The notes below the pieces were generated by a model. The model ran no database searches, had not been told where the DNA came from, and saw only the letters and a list, made by a program, of their open reading frames with translations. From a virus: DNA of 39,641 nt. Below, one piece after another: positions 12,101 through 26,244 of this stretch. Every line of letters starts with the position of its first letter. Position 1 is the stretch's first letter. The stretch is from positions 1-39,641 of IMG/VR virus record IMGVR_UViG_3300043470_001769, one strand, 5' to 3'. Made by a program: the position numbers and the translations under genes.

Positions 12101-12598
12101 TCTGCTCAAGAACCACAAGGTGTTGATACCCGTGTGAACTACGAACTCTACAGTAGAGCATCAGGTGCGGTGATTGACACATTCCCGGCTCGCAACGACG
12201 ATGAAGCAATAACTAGATTGAGTGACTACATAAACTTTGGTGCTGGACAAAGCAATCCTGACAATTTTGATGTTCGCCGTGCTGGTCGTGCTCCTATTGC
12301 AGGTTCTACACTAGACCTACAACGTCAGCGAGCAGCCTCTAGTGCAGCCGCTGCTCAAATTCCCACCATTGACATTGACGTTGAACCAGCGCCAGTACCA
12401 CAGCCAGCAGGCATGGGACAATGGAATGGACAATGGAAAGTGTTGGTTGGCGGCCAAGAAGTGTATCGCTTTGGTGGCGTTGGCAACAGCCAAGCAGATG
12501 CCAACAGAATAGCCGCAGCATGGTTACGAAGCAGTGGTCGGGGTGTATCAGGTGAAGGCTTTGAAGTATATCCTGTGATGGATGAAAGCCTACGTTAA
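9107..12598 (+). CDS. Giant fusion: nucleotidyltransferase, zinc metallopeptidase and amidoligase-like domains
   Basis: Of 1163 residues, about 1-230 form a Pol-beta-like nucleotidyltransferase (GSNAAYSYTKQSDIDLHL, acidic pair D77/D79). About 265-370 form a zincin peptidase with HELTH at 333-337 and a likely third ligand in WENEAN (E358 or E360). About 535-930 match the putative amidoligase (glutamine-synthetase-like ATP-grasp cousin) pattern: GMEFEM at 540-545, GLEFVSPPLP from 766, STGLHINVS at 800-808, EFRSPGGDW from 901. A very acidic insertion lies at about 550-720 and a small C-terminal domain at 1040-1163. No membrane segment. It precedes the small basic packaged-type protein and is under a late octamer, so I infer a virion-internal multi-enzyme protein, perhaps cleaved into parts. 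Confidence 0.85.
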   Translation: MNIHELATYNLDDAVKFHQRLNPVLWARDEHLLPEVRNKLLKIAADFQEFLGVEDLKVKDITVSGSNAAYSYTKQSDIDLHLVVEMPDDPVYQELFAAKKYQYNTEHDITIGGADVELYVQPEDQPHHSQGIYSIKNSDWVKVPQRKRSQIDDTCVLAKVDDLTNRIQSAVASENKESMDTLWNKIKIMRQSGLENHGEFGCENVAFKLLRNNGSIGALKSAITAAQDRELSLPPKKRVRYGFSEDVTSTPDGVSASTNMFLNETPIDGVVQAFIKDAVQQLNIEHMPEVVLHNDASWSKQNNSFGQYNPGTRTLHVSLANRHLLDILRTVAHELTHCRQNELSELPDDAGETGSPWENEANAQAGILMRDFADANPEYFTESYTQAKSLQSSMKTFRALVRIKDRYGSPAIEAQVVARNHDMARQLLRAQYGPDSVVSTVTELKENASGYIPKNKREAAMPQYAMALSVDIKPGQVGKEANKLGLKTGRNGEPGLLMPEAQNLLREFAEFTEEQDNLFEITMSPSSLRKLSAQTGALAGMEFEMIVPNIEGSDDGDQEPDYEYDQRCRSIEDAFDFFYDGDWNGRRDVERMRDRMQNDYQEWLDDKLYRDWERNGEEYLEEWVPNNVDESEWNPEGLEGDERQEALEEFIANLHSDPGGNDAFDEYREENFESYDESDWLSDEDLDLMSAIENNYSMSWPHWTSVGSGEGSIEEVADNFSDAIDRPVQASSSYHSGSVQRPSVKNPHYIVEPDSSLDPDNSDDRGLEFVSPPLPIEELLSDLNKVKAWADRTGCYTNNSTGLHINVSVPGWTGGTDQLDYVKLALLLGDEFVLDSFGRAGNTYAKSAMGKIRDAVRKSPDRAQELMDRMKSGMDQLASKVVHSRSTDKYTSINVKDGYIEFRSPGGDWLNDNFAEIDNTLRRFTVALSAAVDPEAYRQEYLKKLYKLLDVSSEKDPLSYFAKFAAGELPKAALKSFVRQAQLERDVKRGKEQPAPVPSAQEPQGVDTRVNYELYSRASGAVIDTFPARNDDEAITRLSDYINFGAGQSNPDNFDVRRAGRAPIAGSTLDLQRQRAASSAAAAQIPTIDIDVEPAPVPQPAGMGQWNGQWKVLVGGQEVYRFGGVGNSQADANRIAAAWLRSSGRGVSGEGFEVYPVMDESLR

Positions 12599-12604
12599 TA
12601 CCGG

Positions 12605-12814
12605 ATGCCACAGCCCAGTCAAGGTGTGGCGGAAAACTTTGCTGATGGTAAAAATCCTGGACGCAAAGGCCTCAGCAAGCAAGTGGGCGTCAACACCAAA
12701 GCCAGTGTGAGCAGTCTGCGCAAGACAGCAAAGAATTCATCAGGTGAAAAGCAACGCATGGCACACTGGCTGGCCAACATGAAAGCCGGTAGAGCAAAGG
12801 CCAAACGCAAATGA
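12605..12814 (+). CDS. Small very basic protein, probably head-internal and DNA-associated
   Basis: The 69 residues are dominated by Lys, Arg, Ser and Ala (ASVSSLRKTAKNSSGEKQRMAHWLANMKAGRAKAKRK). That is typical of a DNA-binding packaged protein. The N-terminal ten residues contain SQGVAEN, whose GVAE element is the same at nucleotide level as the junctions in the 13814 gene. Cleavage after VAE would release a mature protein beginning NFADGKNPGRKG. It lies between two cassette genes, 6 nt after one and overlapping the next by 4 nt. The family recurs in aquatic T4-like phages to my knowledge, but without a proven function. Confidence 0.75.
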   Translation: MPQPSQGVAENFADGKNPGRKGLSKQVGVNTKASVSSLRKTAKNSSGEKQRMAHWLANMKAGRAKAKRK

Positions 12815-13473
12815 GTTTTTTAGTAGCAAATTTACCACCCATACACTGTTTTGTTCGTAGAGAATTTTTATATGATTTTGAACAAGGTCACGACGAATAT
12901 GAGCCCTGTATATGGGTGTCAATCAAAAGTCTACGCAGTCAAGCATTTCGTATAGAAGCCTACTTGCCACGATATGGCGCACTGTATGACAAACTACCAC
13001 TGCATGCTTATGTCAGCAGAAATACTGATCTAGAGCCTGACAAATTTCTAGCCTTGGATACACTACAGATCTGGGACTGTTTCAGCTATGATATTGCTGT
13101 GATACAAAAAGCATTCCTACGCAATCTCAGCTGTGAGTTCTATGCCAAGGATCGTCAGCTACACAAGGGCAACTACTTGTTCACAGTGGACAATGCCGCA
13201 CCAGACATGAACATCATAGACACCACCTATTCAGAATGGCCAGAAGATCACAAGAGCTTTAACTTTATTGAACTGGACAACGGACAGTATGCCGCACAGC
13301 CCAACAATCGCTGCTTGTTTTTTGATGCTGCCAGCAATCCCAAAGAGATGCTGTTCCCAGATTTCAAAGTCTGCACCAAAAAATACATGGTGGAAACCAA
13401 TCCCAAATGGCGACTGGGTGATTCGGACACTGTGATGTATGATCTAGATAATGCAATAAATAAACAATCATGA
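12811..13473 (+). CDS. Conserved-type phage protein of unknown function
   Basis: This 220-residue protein is mixed alpha/beta with many aromatic residues (FVRREFLYDFEQGHDEYEPCIWVSIK at the start in overlapping parts, then LQIWDCFSYDIAVIQ). A C-terminal section, CLFFDAASNPKEMLFPDF, precedes a lysine-rich stretch. It has several cysteines but no zinc-finger spacing, no membrane span and no catalytic motif I recognise. Proteins of this appearance are frequent in T4-like cyanophage and related genomes. The ATG overlaps the stop of the preceding basic-protein gene by 4 nt (ATGA), so the two are translationally coupled. No capsid-targeting-like leader is seen, unlike its neighbours, so it may be a scaffold or assembly partner. 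Confidence 0.75.
   Translation: MSFLVANLPPIHCFVRREFLYDFEQGHDEYEPCIWVSIKSLRSQAFRIEAYLPRYGALYDKLPLHAYVSRNTDLEPDKFLALDTLQIWDCFSYDIAVIQKAFLRNLSCEFYAKDRQLHKGNYLFTVDNAAPDMNIIDTTYSEWPEDHKSFNFIELDNGQYAAQPNNRCLFFDAASNPKEMLFPDFKVCTKKYMVETNPKWRLGDSDTVMYDLDNAINKQS
13455..13462 (+). promoter_or_regulatory. T4-type late promoter octamer (AATAAATA)
   Basis: The octamer matches seven of eight positions of TATAAATA and ends 7 nt before the ATG at 13470. It lies within the 3' end of the upstream gene. No good ribosome-binding site precedes 13470. Confidence 0.5.
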
Positions 13474-13817
13474 CGTACAAAGAAATTCTTGAAGCCTGCT
13501 GGGACGGTTATCGCCGCAAACCCGGTACTACGGAGTATTCCAAAGGCAGCTGTGAAAAGATCAGCGAGCAGGATATAGAAGAAAATCTTCGAGACTGGTT
13601 CAAACAAAAATGGGTTCGTTTTGGTCCCGACGGAAAAATCCGTGGAGACTGTGCTAGAGGCAGTAGTAAAGAAGGCAAGCCCAAGTGTTTGCCTCAGGCC
13701 AAGGCACATGCACTGGGCCGAAAAGGTCGTGCGTCAGCAGCCGCAAGAAAACGCAGACAAGATCCCAACCCCAACCGTACAGGAAAGGCCATCAACGTGG
13801 CCACTAAAAAGAAATGA
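13470..13817 (+). CDS. DUF5872-like basic protein with capsid-targeting-like leader
   Basis: The 115-residue product carries the DUF5872-type segment KWVRFGPDGKIRGDCARGSS..GKPKCLPQAKA (about residues 48-80). A strongly basic tail follows (RKGRASAAARKRRQDPNPNR). It looks like a small nucleic-acid-binding protein with conserved cysteines. The first nine residues, MTYKEILEA, closely resemble T4 internal-protein leaders that end in (I/L)-x-E before an alanine, so cleavage after Glu8 is plausible. It overlaps both neighbours by 4 nt, forming one tightly coupled cassette. I infer a head-packaged protein; the DUF's molecular function is unknown to me. Confidence 0.8.
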   Translation: MTYKEILEACWDGYRRKPGTTEYSKGSCEKISEQDIEENLRDWFKQKWVRFGPDGKIRGDCARGSSKEGKPKCLPQAKAHALGRKGRASAAARKRRQDPNPNRTGKAINVATKKK

Positions 13818-16800
13818 TCATAGATGAACTATTTGAAGCCCCACAACTGTGCCCTGAATGCGGTGGCATCAGTTTCAGCGATTTAATCTTGGCTGAAAAA
13901 AAAGACGCCTGCTACCACAAGGTCAAAGCGTCAGCCAAGGTATGGCCGTCAGCGTATGCATCAGGACGCTTGGTACAGTGCCGCAAAAAAGGTGCTGCCA
14001 ACTATGGCAACAAGTCGGAAGGTGTGGCGGAAGGCCCTGAGTCTAAAAAATTCAAAGTAACATATGAATTACAAAACGGTGATGTCAAAGAAAAGATAAT
14101 GATTGGCAAAGATGCCAACGCTGTTGCAAAGTATTTTGAATTTAAGTATCGTCACAAACCAATCAGTGTTGTAGAGCAAGGTGTGGCGGAAGGCCAAGAA
14201 AATTTCAATGGTATAGATATCTCTATGGAGATACAAAAAGATGATGAGTATGTGGATGATGAAGATTATGATAATCAAGTAATATATGTCACTGCTAGTA
14301 GCAAAGGTAAAGAACTGGGTCATGTGTTGTTTGCCTTTGACGGTGAATATTTAATGCCACAAGATTTAGAAGTAGAAGAACGCTATCGAGGGCAAGGTAT
14401 CGCTCAAACCATGTACGACTATGTAAAGAGTAAGGGATATAAAATTCGCCGTAGCGGTCAACAAACTGATGCTGGTACTGGATTTTGGGACAAACACAAA
14501 CCAGGAAAAAATGTCTGGGAGCAAGGTGTGGCGGAAGGCTTGTGGGACCAACACACTTCTATCCCTGAGTTAGAGCAAGCCATCAAGAACTTAATCATGG
14601 GATACAAGGGCGGGGTGAACTTAACTGACAAAGGTCGTGCTCAACTGTTACTGAGTATTAACAAGGGCAAGCGTATCTTGGCCAAGAAAAAACAACAGCA
14701 AGACATGGCAGAAGGTCGTATGGTCAAAGGGCCAGGCGGTGTGCCACTGGACCGTCAGGGTCGTCCTATCGTTGCCAAAGCAAAACCACTAGGAATGCGC
14801 AAGTGGCTTGTGATTCATGACGGATCGCATGGCGAAGGTGGCAAAGACATTATTGAAGCACCCAACGCTGAAACAGCCTGGGAATTGGCCAACGAGTATG
14901 ATTTATACATCATCGATATCAAGCCCTACCGAGGACCAGCCGGACCCACGCTGGTGGACGAAAGTGTCTTGGATGAAGCAGTTGGCATGATGATCAAAGG
15001 TGCCGCGATCAGTGGACCCGATGATCAAGACATTGCAGATCGAATTGCTGCCCGAACAGGTGGGCGTGTGCAAGGTGGGTCTCGTGGCCACCATATCCTA
15101 ATAATCTATCCAACCACACAAGATCGTGCCATTGCTGCTAAAAAGATTAGAAAAATGTTCCCTGGCATTGAACTATACAAGTCCGGGGGCAACAGGAACG
15201 CAATCGACGAAGGCATGAAGGCCGACGAACTTTCACAATACTGTGAAGAACTTGTGGCTGAAAAAGGTTGGGATCAAGCATACAAACATGCCAGATTCAT
15301 GGCACAGGGCAGCACAGATCCTTCTTGGGGCAGTGTGCTAAAATATCTCAAATCCATGAAAGATGGTGTGGCGGAAGAAGAATCTGAAGCAGCATCACAG
15401 CGCAAGCAATACCCAAATTATTATCAACATAGAGACTCAGGTACAGTTTTTAGAACTCAAAATGCTGACGGTCAAAGAATGGATATAACTCCCGATGACG
15501 AAGAATGGGATGACTATTACAAACAACAGTTTAAAGATATGCCTACCCCCAATGATGGCGGTTTTTGGAATGATGACAATACAGCAGCCTACGTAGAAGG
15601 CTCAGCAGAACAAGGCGTGGCGGAAGTCAGCCTGGGCGACTATCGTAAAAAGGCACAAGTGAGTCAAGCCGGTGCCAAGATAAACCGATTCTTTGACCGT
15701 GACAATCCTGAAAAAGTTGCCCGAGCCGATCAGACCATTGCCAAAAGAGAACGAGGCCTGGCACGTGCAGATGCTAGAAGCCGACCCTACACCGCACCAC
15801 CTGTGGACAAAGAAAAACAGCGGCAGCAGCTGACAGACAAATATCCCAACATTGACCAACTGGTATCCGATGCTGAAAAGAATCGTGATCCATACTATGA
15901 CCGTGCCGAAGGCAATGCATACTACGCAGGTCGTGAGGCTGAACAAAACTATGTGAGACTCAAACAAATACAACGCATAATTCAAGGACTCAATGAAGAG
16001 ACCAGACAGGCCACAGTGAATACTCCAGCTGGCAATTTCACAGCAAACATCACAAAAGACAAAAGCACAAACACTGTGTCGGGTACGATGCCGGTGGGCG
16101 GAGCAACTTTGAGTGCCAAAAAAGACCTGACACCAGGCGGAGCTCAGTCAGTCACTGTAGACACCGACGTTGCCCCAAATTTGAATTTATCAGCCACACG
16201 AAAGTCTGCTGATTATAACAAAGGACAATTGGCCGGAACCAAGTCGGTGTCAGCCAAGTACACTGATACCACAGGTGCATTGGGCGAGCCTGGACAACAG
16301 CACACTGCAACTAGAACTGCGGGTGTTGGGTTTGGTGGTGCATCAGGCTCTAGAGTAGGAAAAAATTACGTGACTCAAATTGACAAAACTTTAGCTGATT
16401 ACATGAAAGAAGCCAAAGGTATTAATAGTATAAGAAATCCCAATGATCTACAACCATTGGAAGGCGGTGGTGGCATGGGTGGTGGCGGTGGCTACACAGG
16501 TGGTCCCTCACCATTTAAAGGTTGGTTTGGTGGTGCAAAACCTGGATCACGTGAAGCATCCGTTGCTCAAAACAATCCCAACACCATGACGGTGAGACAA
16601 GGTCCAAACCCTGACTATCGTCCCCAGACCACAGGTGATAAACCCAAAGTAAATGTCAAACCCGGCGAGACCATGGATCAGGCTGTACAACGAACAAAAA
16701 CTCAACAAGAATTTGGCAAATTCCTACAAGGGCAAAGTGGTCAAACATTTGGTGCTGGTGGTGGACGTGGTGGTCAAGGTGGGCCAACAGCCGCACAAGC

Positions 16801-17371
16801 AAATACCATGTCCAATGCGCCAGTCAGTGTGAAAAACAAACCATCTGCTATAAATTCCATGGCCAGAGACTTGACCAATCCACCCAAGTCAACCAACACT
16901 ACCACTACCACTACAAACAATTCGCCCAGACAAAACGACCGTGTTGATCCACTTGACATGCCGCGAGATCCATACATGCCGCGAGATCCATTGGATATGA
17001 TACGTCCGGGCTATGACGGTCAGCTGGGCTCAAACCCAGGACCAAACACAGCAGACAAGAAGTCGTCGTGGCTTGGCAAAACAGCCAAAGGATTGGGATA
17101 TGCAGCAGGTGCTTATGGTGCTGCTGACTTGGGTTCACGTGCCCTGGACTACTATGATCAAACAAAAGACCAAAGCCAAGACGAAGTCATTATACCAGAT
17201 ATCAAAGAAACCAAAAAACGTGAGCAGCCCGAAGTGGAGTACGATGATGACTACGATGCTATGGTTGCCAGAGTTAAACGACTAGCCGGACTGGGTCCTA
17301 TGAAGACTGTTTACGATCCCAAGAAGCGACAATATCGCAACATGCCCACAGCAGTGCAGCCTAAAAAATGA
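13814..17371 (+). CDS. Giant modular protein with repeated GVAEG junctions; candidate capsid-cargo polyprotein
   Basis: The leader MIIDELFEAP has an LFE ending like a T4 capsid-targeting sequence. Junction tripeptides end at about E73, E126, E241 (all GVAEG), E300 (MAEG), E521 (GVAEEE) and E604 (GVAEV). Pieces: 1-73 a basic Cys-containing domain (ACYHKVKASAKVWPSAYASG); 74-126 a small alpha/beta domain; 127-241 GNAT acetyltransferase-like (EVEERYRGQGIAQTMYDYV); 242-300 helical; 301-521 mixed, with further LDE and IDE sites near 390 and 465; 522-604 acidic, Tyr/Trp-rich; 605-1185 a long Gly/Asn/Thr-rich disordered arm ending in a basic VKRLAGLGPMKTVYDPKKR-type motif. Known: T4-like prohead proteases cut after (L/I)-x-E. 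Inferred: this is a polyprotein of injected cargo. Confidence 0.85.
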   Translation: MIIDELFEAPQLCPECGGISFSDLILAEKKDACYHKVKASAKVWPSAYASGRLVQCRKKGAANYGNKSEGVAEGPESKKFKVTYELQNGDVKEKIMIGKDANAVAKYFEFKYRHKPISVVEQGVAEGQENFNGIDISMEIQKDDEYVDDEDYDNQVIYVTASSKGKELGHVLFAFDGEYLMPQDLEVEERYRGQGIAQTMYDYVKSKGYKIRRSGQQTDAGTGFWDKHKPGKNVWEQGVAEGLWDQHTSIPELEQAIKNLIMGYKGGVNLTDKGRAQLLLSINKGKRILAKKKQQQDMAEGRMVKGPGGVPLDRQGRPIVAKAKPLGMRKWLVIHDGSHGEGGKDIIEAPNAETAWELANEYDLYIIDIKPYRGPAGPTLVDESVLDEAVGMMIKGAAISGPDDQDIADRIAARTGGRVQGGSRGHHILIIYPTTQDRAIAAKKIRKMFPGIELYKSGGNRNAIDEGMKADELSQYCEELVAEKGWDQAYKHARFMAQGSTDPSWGSVLKYLKSMKDGVAEEESEAASQRKQYPNYYQHRDSGTVFRTQNADGQRMDITPDDEEWDDYYKQQFKDMPTPNDGGFWNDDNTAAYVEGSAEQGVAEVSLGDYRKKAQVSQAGAKINRFFDRDNPEKVARADQTIAKRERGLARADARSRPYTAPPVDKEKQRQQLTDKYPNIDQLVSDAEKNRDPYYDRAEGNAYYAGREAEQNYVRLKQIQRIIQGLNEETRQATVNTPAGNFTANITKDKSTNTVSGTMPVGGATLSAKKDLTPGGAQSVTVDTDVAPNLNLSATRKSADYNKGQLAGTKSVSAKYTDTTGALGEPGQQHTATRTAGVGFGGASGSRVGKNYVTQIDKTLADYMKEAKGINSIRNPNDLQPLEGGGGMGGGGGYTGGPSPFKGWFGGAKPGSREASVAQNNPNTMTVRQGPNPDYRPQTTGDKPKVNVKPGETMDQAVQRTKTQQEFGKFLQGQSGQTFGAGGGRGGQGGPTAAQANTMSNAPVSVKNKPSAINSMARDLTNPPKSTNTTTTTTNNSPRQNDRVDPLDMPRDPYMPRDPLDMIRPGYDGQLGSNPGPNTADKKSSWLGKTAKGLGYAAGAYGAADLGSRALDYYDQTKDQSQDEVIIPDIKETKKREQPEVEYDDDYDAMVARVKRLAGLGPMKTVYDPKKRQYRNMPTAVQPKK
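16957..16991 (+). repeat. Tandem repeat of two 17-bp units
   Basis: CATGCCGCGAGATCCAT occurs at 16957-16973 and again at 16975-16991, an 18-nt period in frame. It encodes two MPRDP units in the disordered arm of the modular protein, a likely recent slippage duplication. Confidence 0.8.
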
Positions 17372-17877
17372 GAGCACAAGAGTTTGTCACCGAAGCCTTT
17401 AACCAGCCATACAAAATGAAGTGGGAAAAAAGTGACTACGGTGATGTTGATGCATTGGTCACACTGCCTGATGGCACCTATCTCACTATCATGTTTGAAC
17501 ATGTGACTCCTTATGAAGTCAACATTTCGTTCTGGAGAAACAACAGTCTTGACGTTACTGGCGAAGGTGACGCTCAACGAATATTTGCTACTGTGTTGGC
17601 TGCTATTCAAAAGTTTCTCACAATGGAGCAACCAGCAAACATATCATTTTCAGCCAGCAAAGAGATAGATATGGACGCAGATGACAGCGGTGCAAAATTT
17701 AACCCAGAAAGCCGGGCCAAGTTGTACAACCGCATGGTCAATCGCTATGCCGCTGCCTGGGGATACACCCCACACAGTTTTGATCATGGCGATGAAGTTA
17801 AATATGAGTTATCACGAATAAAACAAGATGTAGCAGAAGAACAACTGGACGAACTCAGTCACGAATACGAAACATGA
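17368..17877 (+). CDS. Unknown protein with capsid-targeting-like leader MRAQEFVTEA
   Basis: The 169-residue product starts MRAQEFVTEA, strikingly like the T4 internal-protein leader pattern (basic start, EF, then hydrophobic-x-Glu before Ala). A cut after residue 9 is therefore likely. The body is alpha/beta, with strands in the first 60 residues (DVDALVTLPDGTYLTIMF, YEVNISFWRN) and a helical second half including PESRAKLYNRMVNRYAAAWGY. A DVAEEQ near residues 153-158 is a diverged version of the junction element. No catalytic motif is recognised. It overlaps both neighbours by 4 nt in the cassette. I infer a head-internal protein possibly injected with DNA. Confidence 0.78.
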   Translation: MRAQEFVTEAFNQPYKMKWEKSDYGDVDALVTLPDGTYLTIMFEHVTPYEVNISFWRNNSLDVTGEGDAQRIFATVLAAIQKFLTMEQPANISFSASKEIDMDADDSGAKFNPESRAKLYNRMVNRYAAAWGYTPHSFDHGDEVKYELSRIKQDVAEEQLDELSHEYET

Positions 17878-18332
17878 GAGCACGTGAATTCATCAGAGAT
17901 GATTGGAAGGATGTAGCAGACATAGCATCAACTGCGGCTATGTTTGTTCCTGGATTGGCTCCAATTGCTAAAGCATACAACGTGGGAAAAAGTTTATATC
18001 AAGTTGGCAAGACGGCAGTAGATTATAAAAAAGCAAGCGATGAGTTAAATGCAATGGAACCCGAGTTTGCTGCACAACGAGAGCGACAGACTGCACAAAA
18101 CAGTAAATTTTATTCATTAGATGATGTTGATAGACCAGTAGTTCAGTCTATTCATGGTGATCCCAACATTGAAAAAATAGACGAACTTAACTTCCTAGGA
18201 AGTGAATGCACCAAAGACTGTTCAGGACACCGAGCTGGATATGCCTGGTCAAAACGCAAGGGTCTACAACAAGCCAATTCATGGTCACCCAGTTTCAACA
18301 AAGGCGCTGGCCTAGCGGTAGCAGGAAAATAA
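17874..18332 (+). CDS. Unknown small protein of the internal-protein cassette
   Basis: This 152-residue protein begins MRAREFIRDDW, matching the first six residues of the preceding gene's leader except one, but with Asp instead of Glu at the predicted cut position. It may be uncut or cut elsewhere. A weakly hydrophobic helix follows (STAAMFVPGLAPIAKAYNVGKSL, described in parts). The C-terminus has a Cys-containing motif: FLGSECTKDCSGHRAGYAWSKRKG. That motif, with CxxxC and SGHRAGY, reads like a conserved short domain seen in aquatic phage proteins, with unknown function. It shares an ATGA overlap with the preceding gene and ends the cassette before the sugar genes. Confidence 0.75.
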   Translation: MRAREFIRDDWKDVADIASTAAMFVPGLAPIAKAYNVGKSLYQVGKTAVDYKKASDELNAMEPEFAAQRERQTAQNSKFYSLDDVDRPVVQSIHGDPNIEKIDELNFLGSECTKDCSGHRAGYAWSKRKGLQQANSWSPSFNKGAGLAVAGK

Positions 18333-18348
18333 CAACGCCACCATCAAC

Positions 18349-18356
18349 TGCAAATA
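18349..18356 (+). promoter_or_regulatory. Weak late-promoter-like octamer (TGCAAATA)
   Basis: The core is CAAATA rather than TAAATA and ends 9 nt before the ATG at 18366. No ribosome-binding site is present there. It is the poorest match in the set and is listed because the position fits. Confidence 0.3.
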
Positions 18357-18365
18357 CATAAGTGC

Positions 18366-19208
18366 ATGATTGATATTGTCACTGTTGTTTTCGAACAAGA
18401 AATTCCCATATTACAAGCACAAGCGCAAAGCATTGCACTAAACTGCCAACGCATTGGCATCCGCAATATCTATGTGGTGTTGAATGACACCGAAACTATT
18501 GCTGCACAGATTGACCCTGCCTGGTGGGGTCCGTTGTCCAGCAATGTGCTGATAATTCCACGCAGTGCATTCTCCACGCCATTTGTAGCAGATGGTTGGG
18601 TCAGTCAACAAGTGTTAAAACTGCTCACAGCATCAATGAGCTACAACACTTACTCAATGATCTTGGATGCTAAAACTTTGTTTGTGCGTGAACTGGATCC
18701 TGCCACAGTGGTGGACGAAACAGGTCGAATCCTCACAGGTAGATGTCCCATATATCCTGTGTTCGAGCCCAGCAAAAAAATAGTAGAACAGTTGTTTGAA
18801 ATTGAACTCACCGAGCAACTGGGTCCTGGTGGTGTGCCATTCATTGTACACAACGACACCGTGAGAATGATGATTGCTGAAATTACCTTGCGCACACGCA
18901 CACCATTCCCCACATGGTTCCAACAACAAGGCATGGTCACTGAATTCATATTGTATTCAGGATTTGTAAAATTCTTGTGCGGCAATTTGGAAGTTATGTA
19001 CGACAGACAAAACAAACTTGGCGGTATAGTAAATGTCAGCCATGATGAAACTGTGCATTGGCTGACTAAAATAAATCAAATGAACAATCGAAACACTCTG
19101 ACTGTGAGTGTGCATAGAGGCGCCTGGACCCGACTAACTGCACAACAACGTCAAGAATATCGAGATTTGTTGCTACAACGTGGCATAGAGGCAGCACGAG
19201 ATCTATGA
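18366..19208 (+). CDS. DUF6492-type putative glycosyltransferase
   Basis: The 280 residues begin with IDIVTVVFEQEIPILQAQAQSI, the first strand and helix of a GT-A-like fold. They then show DGWVSQQVLKLLTASM and YSMILDAKTLFVREL, the arrangement (conserved Gln-Gln-Lys helix followed by an acidic strand) that I associate with DUF6492 proteins. The usual DxD/DSD site is here LDAKT, with one acidic residue, so catalytic competence is uncertain. A late VNVSHDETVHWLTK segment may supply further active-site residues. It overlaps the PIG-L gene by 4 nt, so it opens a three-gene forward sugar operon. The likely role is surface or base glycosylation. Confidence 0.65.
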   Translation: MIDIVTVVFEQEIPILQAQAQSIALNCQRIGIRNIYVVLNDTETIAAQIDPAWWGPLSSNVLIIPRSAFSTPFVADGWVSQQVLKLLTASMSYNTYSMILDAKTLFVRELDPATVVDETGRILTGRCPIYPVFEPSKKIVEQLFEIELTEQLGPGGVPFIVHNDTVRMMIAEITLRTRTPFPTWFQQQGMVTEFILYSGFVKFLCGNLEVMYDRQNKLGGIVNVSHDETVHWLTKINQMNNRNTLTVSVHRGAWTRLTAQQRQEYRDLLLQRGIEAARDL

Positions 19209-19717
19209 AGGCGTTGTGTCTTGTTGCTCATCCTGATGACTGTGTGATATTTGCCTACAGTTATATCCACAATCATCCTGAGCATGACTGGACCATTGGT
19301 TACTTGACCTATACTGCGACAGATCCGCGTGGTGCAGAAATGGCAGCGTTCTGGCAACGTCGCGGCATTGGCACAGTGTTCCTGGGGTTTGAAGACCACT
19401 GGCATGACAATGAACAGAAACAATTCACTCGTTGGACAGAAGAACGTGCAGAACGAGCCTGTTGGGCATTGGCCAAAGATTTTGACCTGGTGCTAACACA
19501 TGATGAATCTGGCGACTATGGACATATACATCATGTGTTGGTATACCACTCTGTGCAATGGCACCCACGCCTGGTGACATTTGCTCGCCCCGGAGAAGGT
19601 ACAACATACACTGTGCCCGACAATGCATACAGCCTGGATGAATTGCCTCGTCATGCCAACATCATTGCTGGCTTTCATGTCATGCAACATCAAAACAGTT
19701 ACAAGGAAATACAATGA
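19205..19717 (+). CDS. PIG-L/LmbE-type N-deacetylase
   Basis: The N-terminus LCLVAHPDD (about residues 4-12) is the PIG-L family zinc and catalytic motif. HDESGDYGHIHHVLVYHSV (about 98-116) supplies the distal histidines, so the metal site appears intact. At 170 residues it is shorter than typical family members (about 230). PIG-L enzymes remove acetyl groups from N-acetyl-sugars such as GlcNAc derivatives. Situated between a glycosyltransferase-like gene and an SGNH-type gene with 4-nt overlaps at both ends, it probably edits an acetylated sugar used by this phage. Confidence 0.82.
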   Translation: MKALCLVAHPDDCVIFAYSYIHNHPEHDWTIGYLTYTATDPRGAEMAAFWQRRGIGTVFLGFEDHWHDNEQKQFTRWTEERAERACWALAKDFDLVLTHDESGDYGHIHHVLVYHSVQWHPRLVTFARPGEGTTYTVPDNAYSLDELPRHANIIAGFHVMQHQNSYKEIQ

Positions 19718-20520
19718 AATTAATGATAGCAGGTTGCAGTTTTTCAGCTGTCAGCAAGTCATTGCCTGGCACCGCCTGGAGTGAAGTGTTGGCCAAGCGA
19801 CTAGGCTGGGAGTTGATCAATCTAGCACGTCAGGGCTGTAGCAATGGTGGCATACGCATACAGATAGATGAGATACGTAGACAGCGTCCAGACTTTGCTG
19901 TGCTCACTCCCACATTCTGGGACCGAATGGAAATACCTGCCAACAGTGTACCCTACGATTGGAATCAAAAACCCAGTTCAGGAGAGAATCCTCCACTGGA
20001 ACAGCATTTGCAAAATCGTGCCCTGGGCAATGGCTACCGTAGAGAAGATGGCATACGCAATGTCAACTACGGCACAGAACCGTCGAACATGATTTGCGAA
20101 ACTATCTTTACCTTGGCTGAAAACTTTGATCATCCCTACAGACAGGGACGCATCACTAAACAAGCACAAACAGGTGTGCGCCATTGGATTGATTCAATCT
20201 ACGACAATGCTTGGAAAAAACAGTGTGACGAGTGGATCATGCGGGATGGCATCACAATGATGTATTTAGATGGTATCAAATTCATTGTGTGTCCCAACCT
20301 GTTGTGGCCATTTGATCCTGCAAATTCTTCACAGTGGCGTGAGGCATTTCCTAGCATTGTGCCTGATCATTACATCAACTTGGATCCTGCACGATCGCCG
20401 CAGGCCATATGCGGCAACAATCCGTTTTCAGGAGAAGATCCTGGTTATCATTCAAGTCCAGCAGGACAAGAAATAATCGCCGAACACTTTTATCAAACTT
20501 GGTTGGATCACTTCAAGTGA
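19714..20520 (+). CDS. SGNH/GDSL-type hydrolase-like protein
   Basis: The 268-residue protein shows the SGNH block order. GCSFS (residues 6-10) carries the candidate serine nucleophile, NLARQGCSNGGIRIQI (about 34-49) the oxyanion Gly/Asn block, FAVLTPTFWDR (about 62-72) the third block, and GYHSSPAGQEIIAEHF near the C-terminus the His block. Such proteins act as esterases or O-acetyl hydrolases or transferases on sugars. Paired with a PIG-L deacetylase, sugar O-acetyl editing is a reasonable inference. Its 3' end overlaps the 3' end of the converging gene by 13 nt. Confidence 0.75.
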   Translation: MKLMIAGCSFSAVSKSLPGTAWSEVLAKRLGWELINLARQGCSNGGIRIQIDEIRRQRPDFAVLTPTFWDRMEIPANSVPYDWNQKPSSGENPPLEQHLQNRALGNGYRREDGIRNVNYGTEPSNMICETIFTLAENFDHPYRQGRITKQAQTGVRHWIDSIYDNAWKKQCDEWIMRDGITMMYLDGIKFIVCPNLLWPFDPANSSQWREAFPSIVPDHYINLDPARSPQAICGNNPFSGEDPGYHSSPAGQEIIAEHFYQTWLDHFK

Positions 20521-21569
20521 TCTACGACAAACTGCTGTAGTTCTTGTGTTTTTTCTTGTTCAAATTCATACAGCCTATTGTGATTGTGATCCAATTTAGG
20601 TCGTAGTTTTTGCAACAGTGCAGGCAAGTCTTGACTGCATAGATACTGCATTTGTTCAAACGCCCGACTCCAACGAACTACATCATCCGGCTCGGCATCA
20701 TAACTTTCGTCTATGACATCGCTAAAGGTTTCAAATCCCCAGTCCCGGTATTGTTGCAAAAATCCTTGTATGGCAAACACCACAAACAATCTACGAGCTT
20801 GAAAACACTTGGCAGTTTTTTCAGCAGAAAGAAACACACGATCCTTTCCTAGTGTTTCACACACCACACTGAACCAAGTGCGATTGTATATTTCCCAGGG
20901 CACCAAACCGCTGACAGAATTGTCCATGTCTTTTTTAACTTCCCATGCAGAGTCCAAGTTTGGACTCACATAAGGATATTGTAATGCAGTATTATCAAAC
21001 AGCCTGGCCACACGTTCAGGAGTTGAATCGATCCAATGCCCCACAAACAAGTCTCTGTAGGTCACAATTCCCTGTTCCAGCAAGCCTAATTTTTGCATGC
21101 TCAACATTGCAAAATCTCTATGCTCACGACGAGCACCTAGCAGGCATTCAAATGCAAAAGGACGTTGTGCAGGGAAATCTTCTCTTGGTTGATTCCAACG
21201 TAGGAAGTTGAAACTCCAGGCTGGTCTGTAGATCACTCTTGGGTGGGGCGGTTCGTCCAGCCACACACCTGCTGTGTGCAACAGCCAGTTTTCTATGCCT
21301 GTGGTTTCAATCCATTCCACAAGTTCTTTTTTGCTGTGCCACTCAATGTCAGTGAACAACACAAGATCAAATTCATGCAGCGGCAACTTCATGAAGTCTG
21401 GGTTGTATTCGTGTTTGTTGGGCAGACTGTAGAACACTGGCAAGACTGCTATGCTATGCGGCTGTGCCAAGGCTGTGGCCAAGTCTACTATTTGATCATA
21501 GCCAAAGCCCCATTCTGTGGCTTGATAGCCTGGAGAGAATACTTTAAGAGAGGCGTGCAAGAGTTTCAC
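20508..21569 (-). CDS. Putative glycosyltransferase (fucosyltransferase-like C-terminal motif)
   Basis: The GTG start at 21569 gives 353 residues and overlaps the upstream minus-strand gene by 26 nt. The C-terminal half holds WFSVVCETLGKDRVFLSAEKTAKCF followed by GFLQQYRDWGFETFSDVIDESYD (described in parts). That is the E-T-x(n)-EK and GF-x-TF-x(n)-DESYD pattern of phage and GT10-like transferases that bind nucleotide sugars. The N-terminal half (LVLFTDIEWHSKKEL) would bind the acceptor. It is the last gene of a three-gene reverse operon with a radical SAM enzyme and another transferase. Product and acceptor are unknown. Confidence 0.7.
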   Translation of the reverse strand: MKLLHASLKVFSPGYQATEWGFGYDQIVDLATALAQPHSIAVLPVFYSLPNKHEYNPDFMKLPLHEFDLVLFTDIEWHSKKELVEWIETTGIENWLLHTAGVWLDEPPHPRVIYRPAWSFNFLRWNQPREDFPAQRPFAFECLLGARREHRDFAMLSMQKLGLLEQGIVTYRDLFVGHWIDSTPERVARLFDNTALQYPYVSPNLDSAWEVKKDMDNSVSGLVPWEIYNRTWFSVVCETLGKDRVFLSAEKTAKCFQARRLFVVFAIQGFLQQYRDWGFETFSDVIDESYDAEPDDVVRWSRAFEQMQYLCSQDLPALLQKLRPKLDHNHNRLYEFEQEKTQELQQFVVDHLK

Positions 21570-22428
21570 GTATCTTGTCCATGTAGTAGTTGAAGTTCAC
21601 AACTTCTTTCTTTTCCCAGTCCATTTGCAAACTGCGACTCAAGTCAGGCACAGCATCACACACAGCAGTGTGATAGTTGGGATCAAAGTCACCAATCTTT
21701 TCCATGTCGTCATAATGATATCTGCGTTGGAACTCCTGGGTAATGGGTCTTCGGCTCATGGTCCAATTGCCAATGAATTCATATTCTGAAAACCAGCGTA
21801 TGAGTTCACCATTGCCCCAGGGTGGCACAGTGGGTTCAGGCGGGCATGAGTCAATCATGGCATCCAGCCATTTCTTCTGATGTTTTTCTTCCAGGAACTT
21901 TACTAAATCGTTAAAGTCTTGTTTGAGTACAGGCACGTTTTCACTGATAAAGCAGTGTGGCGTGAGTCGGTCAAAGCCCAGTCCATTCTTGATACTTTCA
22001 TAATAACCCCAACTGTGGCGTTCATTCTCCAGCACTTGGAAATTCAACACGCCGTCCTTGATAGGTTTATAGGGTCGGATCAGCAAACAATCACAGTCGT
22101 GCATGATCATCAAGTCATAGTTGAGATAATCAAGAAACGCAAACTTGATGGCCTGCTGACGCAGCCAGTATGTTCTGTAGTCACCGTCAAACACCCAATT
22201 GTTGACTTCAGGATAGATTCTGTAGATCTCTGAATCAGGAGCATAGTCTAACTTGGCGGTATCAATGCCGTACTTTTCAAACACAGGCCACAGTTCTTCC
22301 TGCGGCACAGGGCTGGCAATACAAGTGCGGTCTATGCCAATGAGATTGTTGGCAAATTCAGGTTGCAGGCTCATGATGGCATGCGGCACACGATATCGTG
22401 CTAGGTATAAAATTCTTGCTGAGGTCAT
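21544..22428 (-). CDS. GT-A-like glycosyltransferase (DUF6492-like)
   Basis: I chose ATG at 22428 (MTSARILYLARYR) because AAGGAAAAT stands directly before it and it then follows the radical SAM stop by 7 nt. A longer version starting at 22521 would overlap that gene by 86 nt. The 294 residues contain WLRQQAIKFAFLDYLNYDLMIMHDCDCLL, where the conserved Gln-Gln-Lys helix precedes a DCDC acidic site (about residues 108-111), and SEYEFIGNW further on. This is the same architecture as the 18366 product but with the metal site intact. It belongs to the reverse-strand sugar operon. Confidence 0.72.
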   Translation of the reverse strand: MTSARILYLARYRVPHAIMSLQPEFANNLIGIDRTCIASPVPQEELWPVFEKYGIDTAKLDYAPDSEIYRIYPEVNNWVFDGDYRTYWLRQQAIKFAFLDYLNYDLMIMHDCDCLLIRPYKPIKDGVLNFQVLENERHSWGYYESIKNGLGFDRLTPHCFISENVPVLKQDFNDLVKFLEEKHQKKWLDAMIDSCPPEPTVPPWGNGELIRWFSEYEFIGNWTMSRRPITQEFQRRYHYDDMEKIGDFDPNYHTAVCDAVPDLSRSLQMDWEKKEVVNFNYYMDKIRETLARLS

Positions 22429-22435
22429 ATTTTCC

Positions 22436-23425
22436 TTAGGTGATTGAGCAACTGTTGACACATTGATACAGTCTGCCATCTGCAATACTGCTTTGAGCCC
22501 AGGTTTGTTCCACACGTTCAAACCAGTTTAGACAATGCGCCAAATCATATTTAAGTGCGTTGTTTTCCTCGACCAATTCTTTTGTTTGACTGTTGCCAGC
22601 GTGAGTCATGGTTTTGGGGTAGAATCCCAGGTAACAACAGGGATATACTGAACCATCTGCGGCTATGTATATTTCTTGTTTGATCTTGTGCTGACAACGT
22701 AATTTTAACTCTGGCGTATCCTTGTGACTTTGCACAGTGCGCGGATCAAACCATGTGATGTGACTTTGTAATAAATCTTTGATGTGCGGCACATGATTGC
22801 TGGAGTCTGTGCCAATCCTATGGCTGTATTCTCCTGACCTAGTGAACACTGGTCCAGAGTCTCGGCCATCGTAGATGTTTTCAAATTCCACAAATCCCAG
22901 ATCTTGGGCCAGTTGTCGGCATTCGGCTTCTTGATGTCGGTTGTGATCAAACGGTACAAAACGCCACTTGGCCCGTCCGCCCGCAGCGATAAAAGCCTGT
23001 GCATTGGCTATGACTTTGTTCCAGTCTGTGTCCTGTCTATACAGAGCATGAGTATCTGCCAGACCGTCCAGCGCAAACCCCACAGTGACTCGGGGCAACG
23101 CCAGGCGCCGCCACCAATCTTGGTTGCGCAAACTGCCGTTGGTGTTGATGTTTACTGTGATATCGTGTTCCGCAAGATATTCAACTATTTCCACAGCATC
23201 TCGAGCACTTGCAAAGTCTCCCAGGTTGCCGTTGAAGTTGGCATGTGTTAGCTGTGATATCACAGGTGCCAAAATGTGCCGAAACTGTGCGAGATTCAGT
23301 TCCACATCAGGATAACCCGAATTGTAATCCAAGCCGCGATAGTTGCGCATACACATGGGACAACGGGCATTGCACCGGGTAGTGAGTTCCACATGCACCT
23401 GGCGTATTTGGTCTAACTTTAGCAT
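22436..23425 (-). CDS. Radical SAM/SPASM enzyme
   Basis: [18 protein letters not shown] (about residues 10-27) contains the canonical CxxxCxxC that binds a 4Fe-4S cluster and S-adenosylmethionine. A TIM-barrel-like core follows, including [11 protein letters not shown] and INTNGSLR. The C-terminal SPASM-like region has cysteines in [28 protein letters not shown] and YQCVNSC, fit for auxiliary clusters. At 329 residues it is the usual length. SPASM enzymes modify peptides or sugars by radical chemistry; next to two glycosyltransferases it may make an unusual sugar or modify a protein. A perfect TATAAATA sits 4 nt before its ATG. It is not QueE, which has a different cysteine spacing. Confidence 0.88.
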
Positions 23426-23429
23426 GGGA

Positions 23430-23437
23430 TATTTATA
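23430..23437 (-). promoter_or_regulatory. Exact T4 late promoter octamer TATAAATA (minus strand)
   Basis: On the minus strand the full consensus TATAAATA is followed by TCCC and the ATG of the radical SAM gene at 23425 (gap 4 nt), with no ribosome-binding site. This is the best-matching instance of the start-codon-abutting class. Confidence 0.75.
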
Positions 23438-23449
23438 TACACAGTTTTG

Positions 23450-23457
23450 ACTAAATA
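23450..23457 (+). promoter_or_regulatory. T4-type late promoter octamer (ACTAAATA), divergent partner
   Basis: The octamer is 5 nt before the ATG at 23463. Together with the minus-strand TATAAATA at 23430-23437 it forms a compact divergent late-promoter pair within a 37-bp gap. Confidence 0.6.
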
Positions 23458-23462
23458 TATCT

Positions 23463-23765
23463 ATGCAAACTCAATACGTGCGAGTAGTATGTGATATAAG
23501 TGGCAGGTGTTCCCAACCTGCACGATATCGCGTGTATGTCAATGAAGAATTGTTCAGTGAGCGCACCTGGATCTGGAAAGACATTTATCTTGAAGAGTCT
23601 TTGCAAATACAAGCACCGTTTGGCGCTTACTTGTTGCGGTTTGAAAATGTAGATCCCGACTGTGGTAATTTCAAAATGCGCAATGTGCGAGTACAAGAAG
23701 GTCCTGGCAAGATCAAAACTTTTGATGACAAAATATACATAGAAGTACATGATGAGATGGCGTGA
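23463..23765 (+). CDS. Small beta-rich phage protein
   Basis: The 100-residue protein ([34 protein letters not shown]...) is made of alternating strands with a central W-x-W (TWIWKD) and ends in [16 protein letters not shown]. It looks like a small beta-sandwich, the same general type as the 6905 product, which shares the pattern of an internal wording like RVYVN..LF and a C-terminal strand. There are three cysteines and no membrane segment. Its last codons overlap the next gene by 14 nt. It may be a decoration, chaperone or sugar-binding protein; I cannot assign a function. Confidence 0.7.
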
Positions 23766-23970
23766 AATTGTAGAATCAGCAAGTGCAGGCGCTACTGCAT
23801 CTGGTGGCATTGCTGCTATAAGCCAGCCCATGGGCATGATATCAAGATCTGGCGGTTCCTTGCTGACAGGTAAATATACAACTGAATCAGATCCTACGCC
23901 TAACACGCCCCGGGAATACAAAAGGAACAAACATGCTCGCGGACAGTTTAAAAACTCTATTAGCAACTGA
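23752..23970 (+). CDS. Small Gly/Ala-rich protein with capsid-targeting-like leader
   Basis: Two adjacent ATGs (23749, 23752) are possible. The second gives [13 protein letters not shown], whose I-V-E before Ser fits the (L/I)-x-E leader pattern. The remainder (about 60 residues) is low-complexity and conserved-looking: SAGATASGGIAAISQPMGMISRSGG, described in parts, then a basic end (REYKRNKHARGQFKN). Proteins of this AGATxxGGIAxxxxPMG type recur in T4-like aquatic phages without known function. The gene overlaps the previous gene by 14 nt and the Dps gene by 38 nt, so it is tightly coupled to both. Head-internal location is inferred. Confidence 0.72.
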   Translation: MRWREIVESASAGATASGGIAAISQPMGMISRSGGSLLTGKYTTESDPTPNTPREYKRNKHARGQFKNSISN

Positions 23971-24376
23971 ATATGCTTTTGTGATCAAAGCACAGTTGTT
24001 TCACTGGAATGTGGAAGGGCCTGACTTTGCACAACTGCATGAGTTCTTTGGCAACATCTACGAAGAAGTATACGAAAATTCCATTGATCAAACAGCAGAG
24101 TTTATCCGCATCTTAGATGATTACACTCCTGGCAGTTTTGAAAGATTTGGTGAACTGTCAGAAATCTCTGGCCAAACAAAAATTCCCCGAGCCAGACTCA
24201 TGATTGAAGAATTATATGCCAACAACCAACAGTTGATTGATCTGCTGAACCAAACATTCGCTGTGGCCGAACAAGAAAACCAGCAAGGCATCATGGACTT
24301 TTTGGCAGCACGTATTGACGCACACGGCAAGCACGGCTGGATGCTGAGAAGTTTCTTGAAAGACCAACGAGCATGA
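23933..24376 (+). CDS. dps: Dps/ferritin-like DNA-protection protein
   Basis: The 147 residues form the Dps pattern. QLFHWNVEGPDFAQLHEFFGNIYEEVYENSIDQTAEFIR (about residues 21-60, described in parts) supplies the ferroxidase His of HWNVEG, the later acidic residues and the D-x(3)-E of the second helix. A four-helix bundle continues to KHGWMLRSFLKD. Dps proteins bind ferrous iron, detoxify peroxide and coat DNA in dodecamers. A phage copy is unusual. The small basic N-terminal tail that many Dps proteins use for DNA contact is missing. It overlaps genes on both sides within the internal-protein cassette, so packaging with DNA or protection of replicating DNA are both possible. Confidence 0.88.
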   Translation: MLADSLKTLLATEYAFVIKAQLFHWNVEGPDFAQLHEFFGNIYEEVYENSIDQTAEFIRILDDYTPGSFERFGELSEISGQTKIPRARLMIEELYANNQQLIDLLNQTFAVAEQENQQGIMDFLAARIDAHGKHGWMLRSFLKDQRA

Positions 24377-26244
24377 GCAACGACATCCGTGATATAATAA
24401 GACGACTGGACATGGTGGAGGGTCGACTGAGCCCTGCGCAACAAAAAGTTCCACAATTGCCTGCGCTGTTCAAACCACGGCACATTCGTGCTCTGGGCTC
24501 AAAAACAGATCCTGCGCATCCCATGGATGGCTACATGGTTGGCGATAGCATAGAGCCTCGTCGCACTGCACTGGAAGAAGCCATGGCGGAGATTGAAGAA
24601 GACATGCTGAGCAAGGTCAAACGCGACCTAACAACATATTTGGATCGTCTGGAAAAGAAAGTTGCAGTGAGTCGCGACTTGAAAGACAAGGCCAAAGATG
24701 CTGTAGAACGCGGTCGGGTTGAAGAGTTTGCACCAGTGGGCGGTGACGATCGTGAGCCCAATGAAGAAGAAATCCTACGTCAATTGGCTGCACAATGGTG
24801 GAATGGCACAGAACAACAAATGGCCAAGGCACAACGCACACTGGCAGCAATGGGCTGGGAAATTGGTCCCGATGAGTCCGGCGATGACGATGCTGGTGTG
24901 TACGTGTACCGTATAGGGGACGAGGATGGTCGTGATACTATACCGTTTGCTCACAGTGATTTAGATATATTAGATGAAATTGATTCCTCTGGCAATACAC
25001 CAACTCAAGCACAAGCCAATAAGTTAGATGCAGCCGGTAATCAAATTTCACAAGCTAAACAAGACATAGAAGCAGGCAATAATTTTAAAGGTGCCTTTAA
25101 TGCAGCCAGAGGTGTCAATCAGGCATTGGATGCTGGCGGAGCCACACTTGGAGATAAAGCCAGTTTGGCCTGGACAGGCGCAAAGGCAGTTGGTAGCGCA
25201 GCCTTGGCCAAGCTGACTGGTCAAAATCCACAGGCGGCGGCGGCGGACAGCGTGGCAAAAAGTATCGTTGGTCCTCTTTCGGGGGTGGATACTAAACAGG
25301 CCGCTGCCACTGCACAACAATATAGAGGACCAAATGCAAAAGATATCACTAAGGATCCTCAATTTGCAAAATTACCATTAGCAAAACAACAACAAGTTAC
25401 CCAGGCTCAACAACAAATTCGTGACATGGGTGATGATGATTTTGCCAATGTGCAGAATTTTAATGCAAAACAAACAACGGCAAATCTTGCAGCAGCCATG
25501 AAAGAAGAACAAGGCAACGACTTCAACACCTACACCACAAATGCTCAAGGACAACGCCTTCAACAGTCTCCAAATCTCATGGGTGTACAACAAACAAAAA
25601 ATTTAGACACTGGTGACACAACCACTGATTACAATCAAGGTCCCATGTCCGCATCTCAAACAAAAAATGCTGCCGGCGCTACCACAGCAAAAGCACAGTC
25701 GGTGGATCTTGGGGTGGCCAAGTTTGGAACAAAACAACAACAACCAAACTATGCTGCTGGCCAGCTGGCATCACCCACAGTGGCCAAGGTCAGTGTGCCA
25801 GCCGGCAACGCCACAGTAACACAAAAATCATATGCAGGTCCTATGTTGGGCGGTGCAAGTGGACCCGGTGTTGGCAACAATGTCATAACCAAGGCTGCTC
25901 GAGTTGTACCAAATGCAAATCCTGCCAAAAGCGCAGTGGATCCAGCAGCCGCAGCTGACGCCACAGCCACAGCCAATCAACTCAGCCAGGCAGCAGCACC
26001 TGCACTGAACAAACAACCAGGCTTACAAGAAAGATCGCGCCCAGTGGAAACATTCGAAATGGCTGATGGCTCATGCTTGGAATGCTATGGCGATGATGAA
26101 CAAGGCTATGAACTGCGCCGGCAAGGCAACAGCCTGCCCAGTCGTTTCAAAACACGCAAGCATGCCAAAATGGCTGTGGACCTGTTCCGTGCTAGACGAA
26201 AACAAAATCAAGACCTCAGTCAAGATTACATAGAAGAAAAGTAA
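24373..26244 (+). CDS. Large modular internal-type protein, Gln/Ala-rich
   Basis: The 623 residues start MSNDIRDIIRRLDMVEG, with an M-V-E before Gly as a possible cut. A conserved-looking block follows (VPQLPALFKPRHI, DPAHPMDGYMVGD, about residues 27-58), then a helical coiled-coil zone (about 65-115). An acidic domain comes next (about 128-195, QLAAQWWNGTEQQMAKAQRTLAAMGW), then a long Gln/Ala/Asn/Thr-rich disordered arm (about 200-550). A compact C-terminal domain (ETFEMADGSCLECYGDDEQGYELRRQGN) ends in a basic helix. The disordered arm shares phrasing with the 13814 product (NYxxGQLA, GGASGxxVGxN), so the two are probably paralogous in part. I infer a head-internal or scaffold protein. Confidence 0.78.
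   Translation: MSNDIRDIIRRLDMVEGRLSPAQQKVPQLPALFKPRHIRALGSKTDPAHPMDGYMVGDSIEPRRTALEEAMAEIEEDMLSKVKRDLTTYLDRLEKKVAVSRDLKDKAKDAVERGRVEEFAPVGGDDREPNEEEILRQLAAQWWNGTEQQMAKAQRTLAAMGWEIGPDESGDDDAGVYVYRIGDEDGRDTIPFAHSDLDILDEIDSSGNTPTQAQANKLDAAGNQISQAKQDIEAGNNFKGAFNAARGVNQALDAGGATLGDKASLAWTGAKAVGSAALAKLTGQNPQAAAADSVAKSIVGPLSGVDTKQAAATAQQYRGPNAKDITKDPQFAKLPLAKQQQVTQAQQQIRDMGDDDFANVQNFNAKQTTANLAAAMKEEQGNDFNTYTTNAQGQRLQQSPNLMGVQQTKNLDTGDTTTDYNQGPMSASQTKNAAGATTAKAQSVDLGVAKFGTKQQQPNYAAGQLASPTVAKVSVPAGNATVTQKSYAGPMLGGASGPGVGNNVITKAARVVPNANPAKSAVDPAAAADATATANQLSQAAAPALNKQPGLQERSRPVETFEMADGSCLECYGDDEQGYELRRQGNSLPSRFKTRKHAKMAVDLFRARRKQNQDLSQDYIEEK

Follow-up and report, generated by a model that had tools for sequence, protein, structure and literature searches.

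Short leaders and internal linkers with a common Glu site mark probable head-targeted cargo modules of T4-related phages

The window analysed here is a 39,641-base fragment of a phage genome (IMG/VR record IMGVR_UViG_3300043470_001769), in which several genes begin with short leaders that an earlier note had likened to the capsid-targeting sequences (CTS) of T4. We propose that these genes probably encode T4-type head-targeted cargo, shuffled between phages as modules and in part fused into polyproteins that would be cut by a gp21-type prohead protease. The leaders, the internal linkers, their equivalence as junctions, the rule of the site, the shuffling of modules and the co-occurrence of gp21 and gp23 in relatives are all read directly in the sequences. 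Genes are named below by their start, and an arrow marks the predicted cut.

Leaders of the window genes

In T4, the site of gp21 is L/I-x-E, with the cut behind the Glu. Residues 4 and 7 of the CTS matter for targeting and residues 8 and 10 for processing, and Asp at position 10 blocks processing while targeting is kept (PMC9026906). The T4 leaders quoted in the earlier note are correct in NC_000866, where ipII and ipIII begin MKTYQEFIAE↓A and alt begins MELITELFDE↓D; gp24 begins MAKINELLRE↓S. Each N-terminus quoted for the window (13470, 13814, 17368, 23749/23752, 17874, 24373 and 12605) is present at its start, and 13470, 13814, 17368 and 23752 do have starts of 8-9 residues that end in hydrophobic-x-Glu and are followed by a small residue. 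The leaders are as follows.

13470..13493, + strand: leader MTYKEILE↓ of the 13470 product (DUF5872-like CWxGY module); in relatives the same module is preceded by MRYKEILE↓, MRITDVITE↓, MRASEIITE↓ or MRAIEISE↓
13814..13837, + strand: leader MIIDELFE↓ of the 13814 product, which aligns exactly with internal QGVAE↓ ends in relatives
17368..17394, + strand: leader MRAQEFVTE↓ of the 17368 product (42 contexts; E9 invariant in alignment A1)
17874..17900, + strand: degenerate leader MRAREFIRD↓ (P1 = Asp; start MRAREFIRDD), compared with the L310 ortholog
23752..23775, + strand: leader MRWREIVE↓ of a 72-residue protein, followed by a SASAGATASGG box; in 39 related loci [hx]E↓[STND] is kept and the leader text varies
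24373..24420, + strand: possible long leader MSNDIRDIIRRLDMVE↓ of the 24373 product, with E↓G kept in relatives

The start of 17874 had been suggested to be a mutated leader, and its ortholog in L310 indeed begins MRAREFVTE↓A. The window version fits the T4 rule for Asp at CTS position 10, by which processing is blocked and targeting kept. This open reading frame (ORF) itself seems to be an insertion (window 17368-18332): QDVAEEQLDELS closes 17368 and the FLGSECTKDCSGHRAGY module closes 17874, and these two parts are contiguous in one chain in L231 and others. Two suggested variants fared less well. For 24373 (MSNDIRDIIRRLDMVE↓G), relatives retain E↓G (RLAILE↓G, RLALIE↓G, RLATVE↓G), yet some of them have Thr at P3. 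The start of 12605 (MPQPSQGVAE↓N) is no leader; it is a linker of the internal type preceding a module. Two further starts were rejected: that of 29379 (MKLSDLISYLNLLE) looks like a leader but its Glu is lost in relatives, and that of 9107 (MNIHELAT) has no Glu.

With a fixed leader rule (Glu at P1 as residue 8-12, hydrophobic P3, small P1'), 5 of the 45 window genes fit, 12605 being counted, against a mean of 1.25 when the first 40 residues are shuffled (P = 0.008). Within 12.6-24.4 kb, an interval picked post hoc, the rule fits 5 of 16 genes against 0.46 after shuffling. Such window-only statistics are suggestive but modest, and they could be put down to an after-the-fact choice of short N-terminal strings. 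The junctions described below contradict this explanation: the Glu is invariant over dozens of unrelated contexts before several unrelated modules, and the enrichments extend over the whole set of relatives, so that a chance origin is hardly credible. In a 367-kb relative, for instance, 23 of 372 ORFs are of the leader type against 10.2 ± 3.0 after shuffling. The comparison with the T4 CTS type holds for the four window genes and for dozens of relatives, with V or M also found at P3, and the leader is common to proteins otherwise without homology, since the unrelated modules M1-M5 all carry it.

A modular polyprotein with internal linkers

The 13814 product contains six linker copies, mostly (E/K)QGVAE↓G, at residues 70, 123, 238, 297, 518 and 601, and these are nearly identical as DNA (GAGCAAGGTGTGGCGGAAGGC). 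The earlier note had recognised the leader of this protein and overlooked the linkers, which are its main feature. Linkers and modules of the window are listed here; D1 and D2 are repeat families.

13814..17371, + strand: ORF of the modular product of 1185 residues
13838..14014, + strand: module 1 (CPECGG ... KKDACYHKVKASAKVWPSAYASGRLVQCRKKGA), found alone, N-terminal or internal in relatives
14015..14035, + strand: linker 1, SEGVAE↓G (D1)
14036..14173, + strand: module 2, small alpha/beta domain (AlphaFold2 model m5be40be15e61)
14174..14194, + strand: linker 2, EQGVAE↓G (D1), adjoining low-confidence model segment 114-123
14195..14518, + strand: module 3, GNAT-like acetyltransferase (Pfam and Foldseek)
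14519..14539, + strand: linker 3, EQGVAE↓G (D1), identical in DNA to linker 2, in low-confidence model segment 229-245
14696..14716, + strand: linker 4, QQDMAE↓G
15359..15379, + strand: linker 5, KDGVAE↓E (D2)
15608..15628, + strand: linker 6, EQGVAE↓V (D1)
12617..12637, + strand: linker SQGVAE↓N (D1) opening the 12605 product, before its ENFADGK module
17824..17841, + strand: C-terminal linker QDVAE↓E of the 17368 product; in L231 the sequence GVAEEQLDELS runs on into a downstream module

An AlphaFold2 model of residues 1-309 places the two low-confidence segments, at which linkers 2 and 3 lie, between folded modules; module 1 is modelled poorly. In L117, too, module 3 has GVAE on either side. 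Its GNAT match in Pfam (E = 0.004) lies below the cut-off and its best Foldseek matches are GNAT proteins, none under E 0.001; these weak matches are the single hint of an activity among the cargo. A GNAT-like fold match of the 17368 module (E 7e-4, TM 0.38) was too weak to be used as an assignment.

A scan of viral contigs with the linker pattern gave at least 120 loci, and among the matches listed ORFs have up to eight linkers each, with unrelated modules between them. A Pfam scan found no peptidase domain in eight of these polyproteins or in the 13814 product. The C-terminal LAGL motif seen in gp22 and in the 13814 product was considered as a second head tag and dropped for lack of enrichment in polyproteins (3/93 against 16/883). 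A few polyproteins (L038, L053, L055, L077) end in RIKKLSGL-like sequences that resemble the gp22 C-terminus RRLAGL, without overall enrichment.

Leaders and linkers form one type of junction

When the window modules were traced in relatives, the same modules occurred either behind a leader or behind a linker. The N-terminal module of 13814 starts at residue 9; in L014, L037, L066, L114, L117 and L008 it stands right after the Glu of an internal linker, and it is with these linkers that the end of MIIDELFE↓ aligns exactly. The 17368 module (AFDQPY) carries leaders such as MRAQEFVAE↓, MKIKEIISE↓ and MRANEFVIE↓, and inside long chains it is preceded by KTNKVAE↓, DVRVWE↓, DTWIMKE↓, SIVKE↓ or KQGVAE↓. 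Its 42 distinct contexts all have Glu at P1 and one of V, I, L and M at P3, with P2 and P4-P8 varying freely. The 12605 module, which elsewhere is C-terminal after unrelated modules, has Glu at P1 in 62 of 62 contexts and a hydrophobic P3 in 55 of them. Junction agreement is less clean for the modules of 13470 and 13814 (47/77, and 38/49 within two residues).

A motif-blind comparison gave a similar picture. Comparison of the ORFs from some 370 loci among themselves gave the points at which homology starts, gathered without reference to any motif. Near the 2208 unique break points, hydrophobic-x-Glu followed by a small residue was present in 36% of cases against 18 ± 0.7% at random positions. 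Versions of the site with Q, D or K in place of Glu showed no excess, and sites other than VAE were enriched too. Among the matches listed, the strict leader rule fits 38 of the 99 linker-bearing proteins whose start is visible, against 11 ± 3 after shuffling.

Conservation of the linker as DNA

The linker is also conserved at the nucleotide level. In 183 copies lying outside the search pattern, its residues are encoded by GGT (95%), GTG (87%), GCG (91%) and GAA (87%); outside the linkers, the same ORFs use these codons at 44%, 19%, 6% and 80%, respectively. This codon bias indicates that the linker is conserved as DNA and points to recent spread or recombination at this place. Alignment ends also fall near a linker in both proteins more often than expected (207 against 15), counted over pairs that are not independent. 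From these two observations one could argue that QGVAEG is mainly a recombination tract, which provides DNA homology for domain swaps and remains in the protein as a flexible, uncut linker, the leaders being an unrelated N-terminal motif. However, most junctions of the 17368 and 12605 types keep hydrophobic-x-Glu without GVAE or the DNA element, and before the same module leaders and linkers have only the hydrophobic-x-Glu rule in common. Moreover, the break points are enriched in non-VAE sites as well, and 394 of 396 copies of the linker 12-mer are in the GVAE frame. We therefore regard recombination as the main role of the linker as unlikely; it may well operate there too. In our reading, the rule holds generally at the level of the protein, and the QGVAEG DNA is a version of it that has been successful and is spreading.

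The linker was also considered as a mobile or cellular DNA element. This was dismissed on two scans: the exact linker gave eight scattered matches in 84,980 prokaryote genomes, most of them in cellular chromosomes, and the linker DNA gave chance-level matches only in the collection of isolate phages. An exact copy is present in L144, a scaffold of 4767 bases in a metagenome-assembled genome of Alphaproteobacteria from Lake Pavin, perhaps a phage scaffold binned with the bacterium.

The prohead protease and the head genes of relatives

Absence of a gp21-type protease from the complete genome would, according to the earlier note, refute the comparison with T4; relatives with head genes do carry an S77 protease. 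Among 43 contigs with leaders, linkers or modules of this kind, 16 have a full-length gp23, and the S77 protease gp21 (PF03420) is found in exactly the same 16; three of these also carry orthologs of 13470, 17368 or 23752. Both genes are present in seven of the eight contigs longer than 280 kb. The seven contigs examined for gene order have that of T4 (portal, 67/68-like, 21, 22, 23), and H85 and S140 of the T4 enzyme are invariant in 15 aligned gp21 sequences. In G017, gp21 lies at 62 kb and the leader genes at 187-189 and 254-262 kb, far from the head cluster. A very large contig, G020 (342,865 bases; L251, L315, L373), has cargo modules and no match to gp21 or gp23; the contig may be incomplete, or its head diverged.

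The major head protein of the relatives provides a second link. Their gp23 is short, but alignment with T4 shows LxE↓[STN] at the position of the T4 cut FLTE↓A. In many otherwise unrelated leader proteins and in some polyproteins, the site is followed by a box like SASAGATSAGSIATV, which also forms the predicted mature N-terminus of gp23 in this phage group. In 29 cases other than gp23, hydrophobic-x-Glu stands just before this box in 21, against a background of 5%. The SASAGATASGG-type box lies at 23776-23815 in the window, in the 23752 product, and is seen in the gp23 of L136-L142 and L410-L418. The site matches both the rule of T4 gp21 and the predicted processing site of the group's own gp23, and we count this in favour of cutting by a gp21-type enzyme.

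Several points weigh against head targeting followed by cleavage. The 39.6-kb window itself contains no gp21 or S77 protease, and no head gene was recognised among the window genes scanned. The motif is short, being present in 18% of random windows, and 61 of the 99 linker-bearing proteins mentioned above miss the strict leader rule. A protease site alone leaves the conservation of the linker as DNA unexplained. Finally, the virion proteins of phage CBB (detected by mass spectrometry or annotated as structural) showed no obvious leader enrichment in the three stretches inspected, and the trait may therefore be restricted to an uncultured group. This last point, the fact that several of the longest polyproteins begin without a recognised leader, and the indirect case for packaging would also suit another explanation, in which the leaders and junctions are targeting or docking peptides for a tail, baseplate or host protein, with a different protease or none. 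We consider this quite improbable, because the site follows the rule of gp21 and of the predicted gp23 site, and the SAGATSAG box is common to these proteins and gp23.

Comparison with known systems

T4-type targeting and gp21-type cutting, as first suggested from the window, passed every comparative test available, with cleavage and packaging staying at the level of prediction. The earlier reading was nevertheless partial, because the window has no head genes, 12605 proved to start with a linker, 24373 has at most a possible long leader and the polyprotein junctions had been overlooked. We propose the following scheme for a T4-related phage whose genes would encode head-internal cargo. A short capsid-targeting leader would put each cargo protein into the prohead core, where the S77 prohead protease (gp21 type) would cut at [V/I/L/M]-x-E↓small, behind the Glu. 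Part of the cargo would be made as polyproteins, in which this site, mostly in the form QGVAE↓G, connects independent modules. A single targeting event could thus load several modules, which the protease would separate before delivery with the DNA. The phages exchange modules at these junctions, and a module that has a leader in one of them may follow a linker in the next. Packaging, cleavage, injection and a host-directed function are here extrapolated from the match to T4. For freshwater T4-related jumbo phages, we lean slightly towards a more specific form of this scheme, a cassette delivery system in which modules are shuffled at a nucleotide-conserved linker that doubles as head-protease site, and a polyprotein with one leader is split in the head into several injected effectors.

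The closest parallel is found in the T4 internal proteins IPI-IPIII and Alt. The Ip proteins have only their leader in common and were found by it; they are injected anti-restriction proteins, and the type IV restriction enzyme blocked is a different one for each of Ip1-Ip3 (PMC12373910). Both systems have a leader of 8-10 residues that ends in hydrophobic-x-Glu before a small residue (MRAQEFVAE↓ in relatives, MKTYQEFIAE↓ in T4), placed on non-homologous proteins, and a gp21-type protease, here in the relatives. Unlike T4, these phages have many more leader genes, modules that also occur inside polyproteins, and the nucleotide-conserved QGVAEG; packaging is predicted for them. The T4 core proteins gp22, gp67 and gp68, multiply cut by gp21, resemble the polyproteins in having several hydrophobic-x-Glu sites per chain. 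However, the sites described here lie between folded, exchangeable modules and not in a scaffold destined for degradation, and the 20-67-68-21-22-23 cluster does not include these genes. Likewise, many head proteins of SPN3US and phiKZ are cut after Glu by the prohead protease, some of them several times per propeptide (PMC10052503, PMC9026906); the extra cuts remove propeptides there, whereas the pieces would be separate products here. Polyvalent proteins (Iyer et al. 2017, PMC5512222) are multi-domain, as are the 13814 product and its relatives; they are probably delivered to the host, which may hold here too. They are self-cleaving and have been compared with the polyproteins of RNA viruses (PMC5512222). 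Their peptidase domains are embedded, whereas none was found in the eight polyproteins scanned here, whose sites match the head protease.

Judged by gp23, the closest cultured phages are Sinorhizobium phage Phosso (72% identity to the gp23 of a window relative) and the Rak2-like jumbo phages CBB, GAP32 and 121Q (about 67%), and an S77 protease is annotated in CBB. The isolate collection contains no near-identical phage, and the Rak2-like phages differ by the chance-level linker matches and the CBB virion proteins described above. Our literature search found no mention of QGVAEG and no description of cargo polyproteins cut by a head protease; we therefore class the present system as a variant, so far undescribed, of the T4 internal-protein system.

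Few phage proteins are known that travel in the head and are injected to counter host defences, and the T4 internal proteins belong to these (PMC12373910). From sequence alone, the site rule picks out candidate injected proteins of abundant lake phages in large numbers, most of them without annotation, and it gives the exact start of each predicted mature module. If gp21 cuts the linkers, a DNA phage would here be borrowing its head-maturation protease to process polyproteins, and the combination of leader and linker would lend itself to tagging several cargo proteins for packaging.

Neighbouring genes

From 12605 to 17877, a four-base overlap (ATGA) occurs in five gene pairs in succession, which suggests translational coupling of the cargo genes. 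Upstream, 9107-12598 encodes a product of 1163 residues with an amidoligase domain (PF12224, over the cut-off), a weak nucleotidyltransferase match below the cut-off and no leader. The cargo block is broken by three genes on the opposite strand (20508-23425, minus strand); in one of them a CxxxCxxC motif like that of radical-SAM proteins was noticed by eye. The 23752 leader gene is followed immediately by 23933-24376, which encodes a ferritin/Dps-like protein (PF00210).

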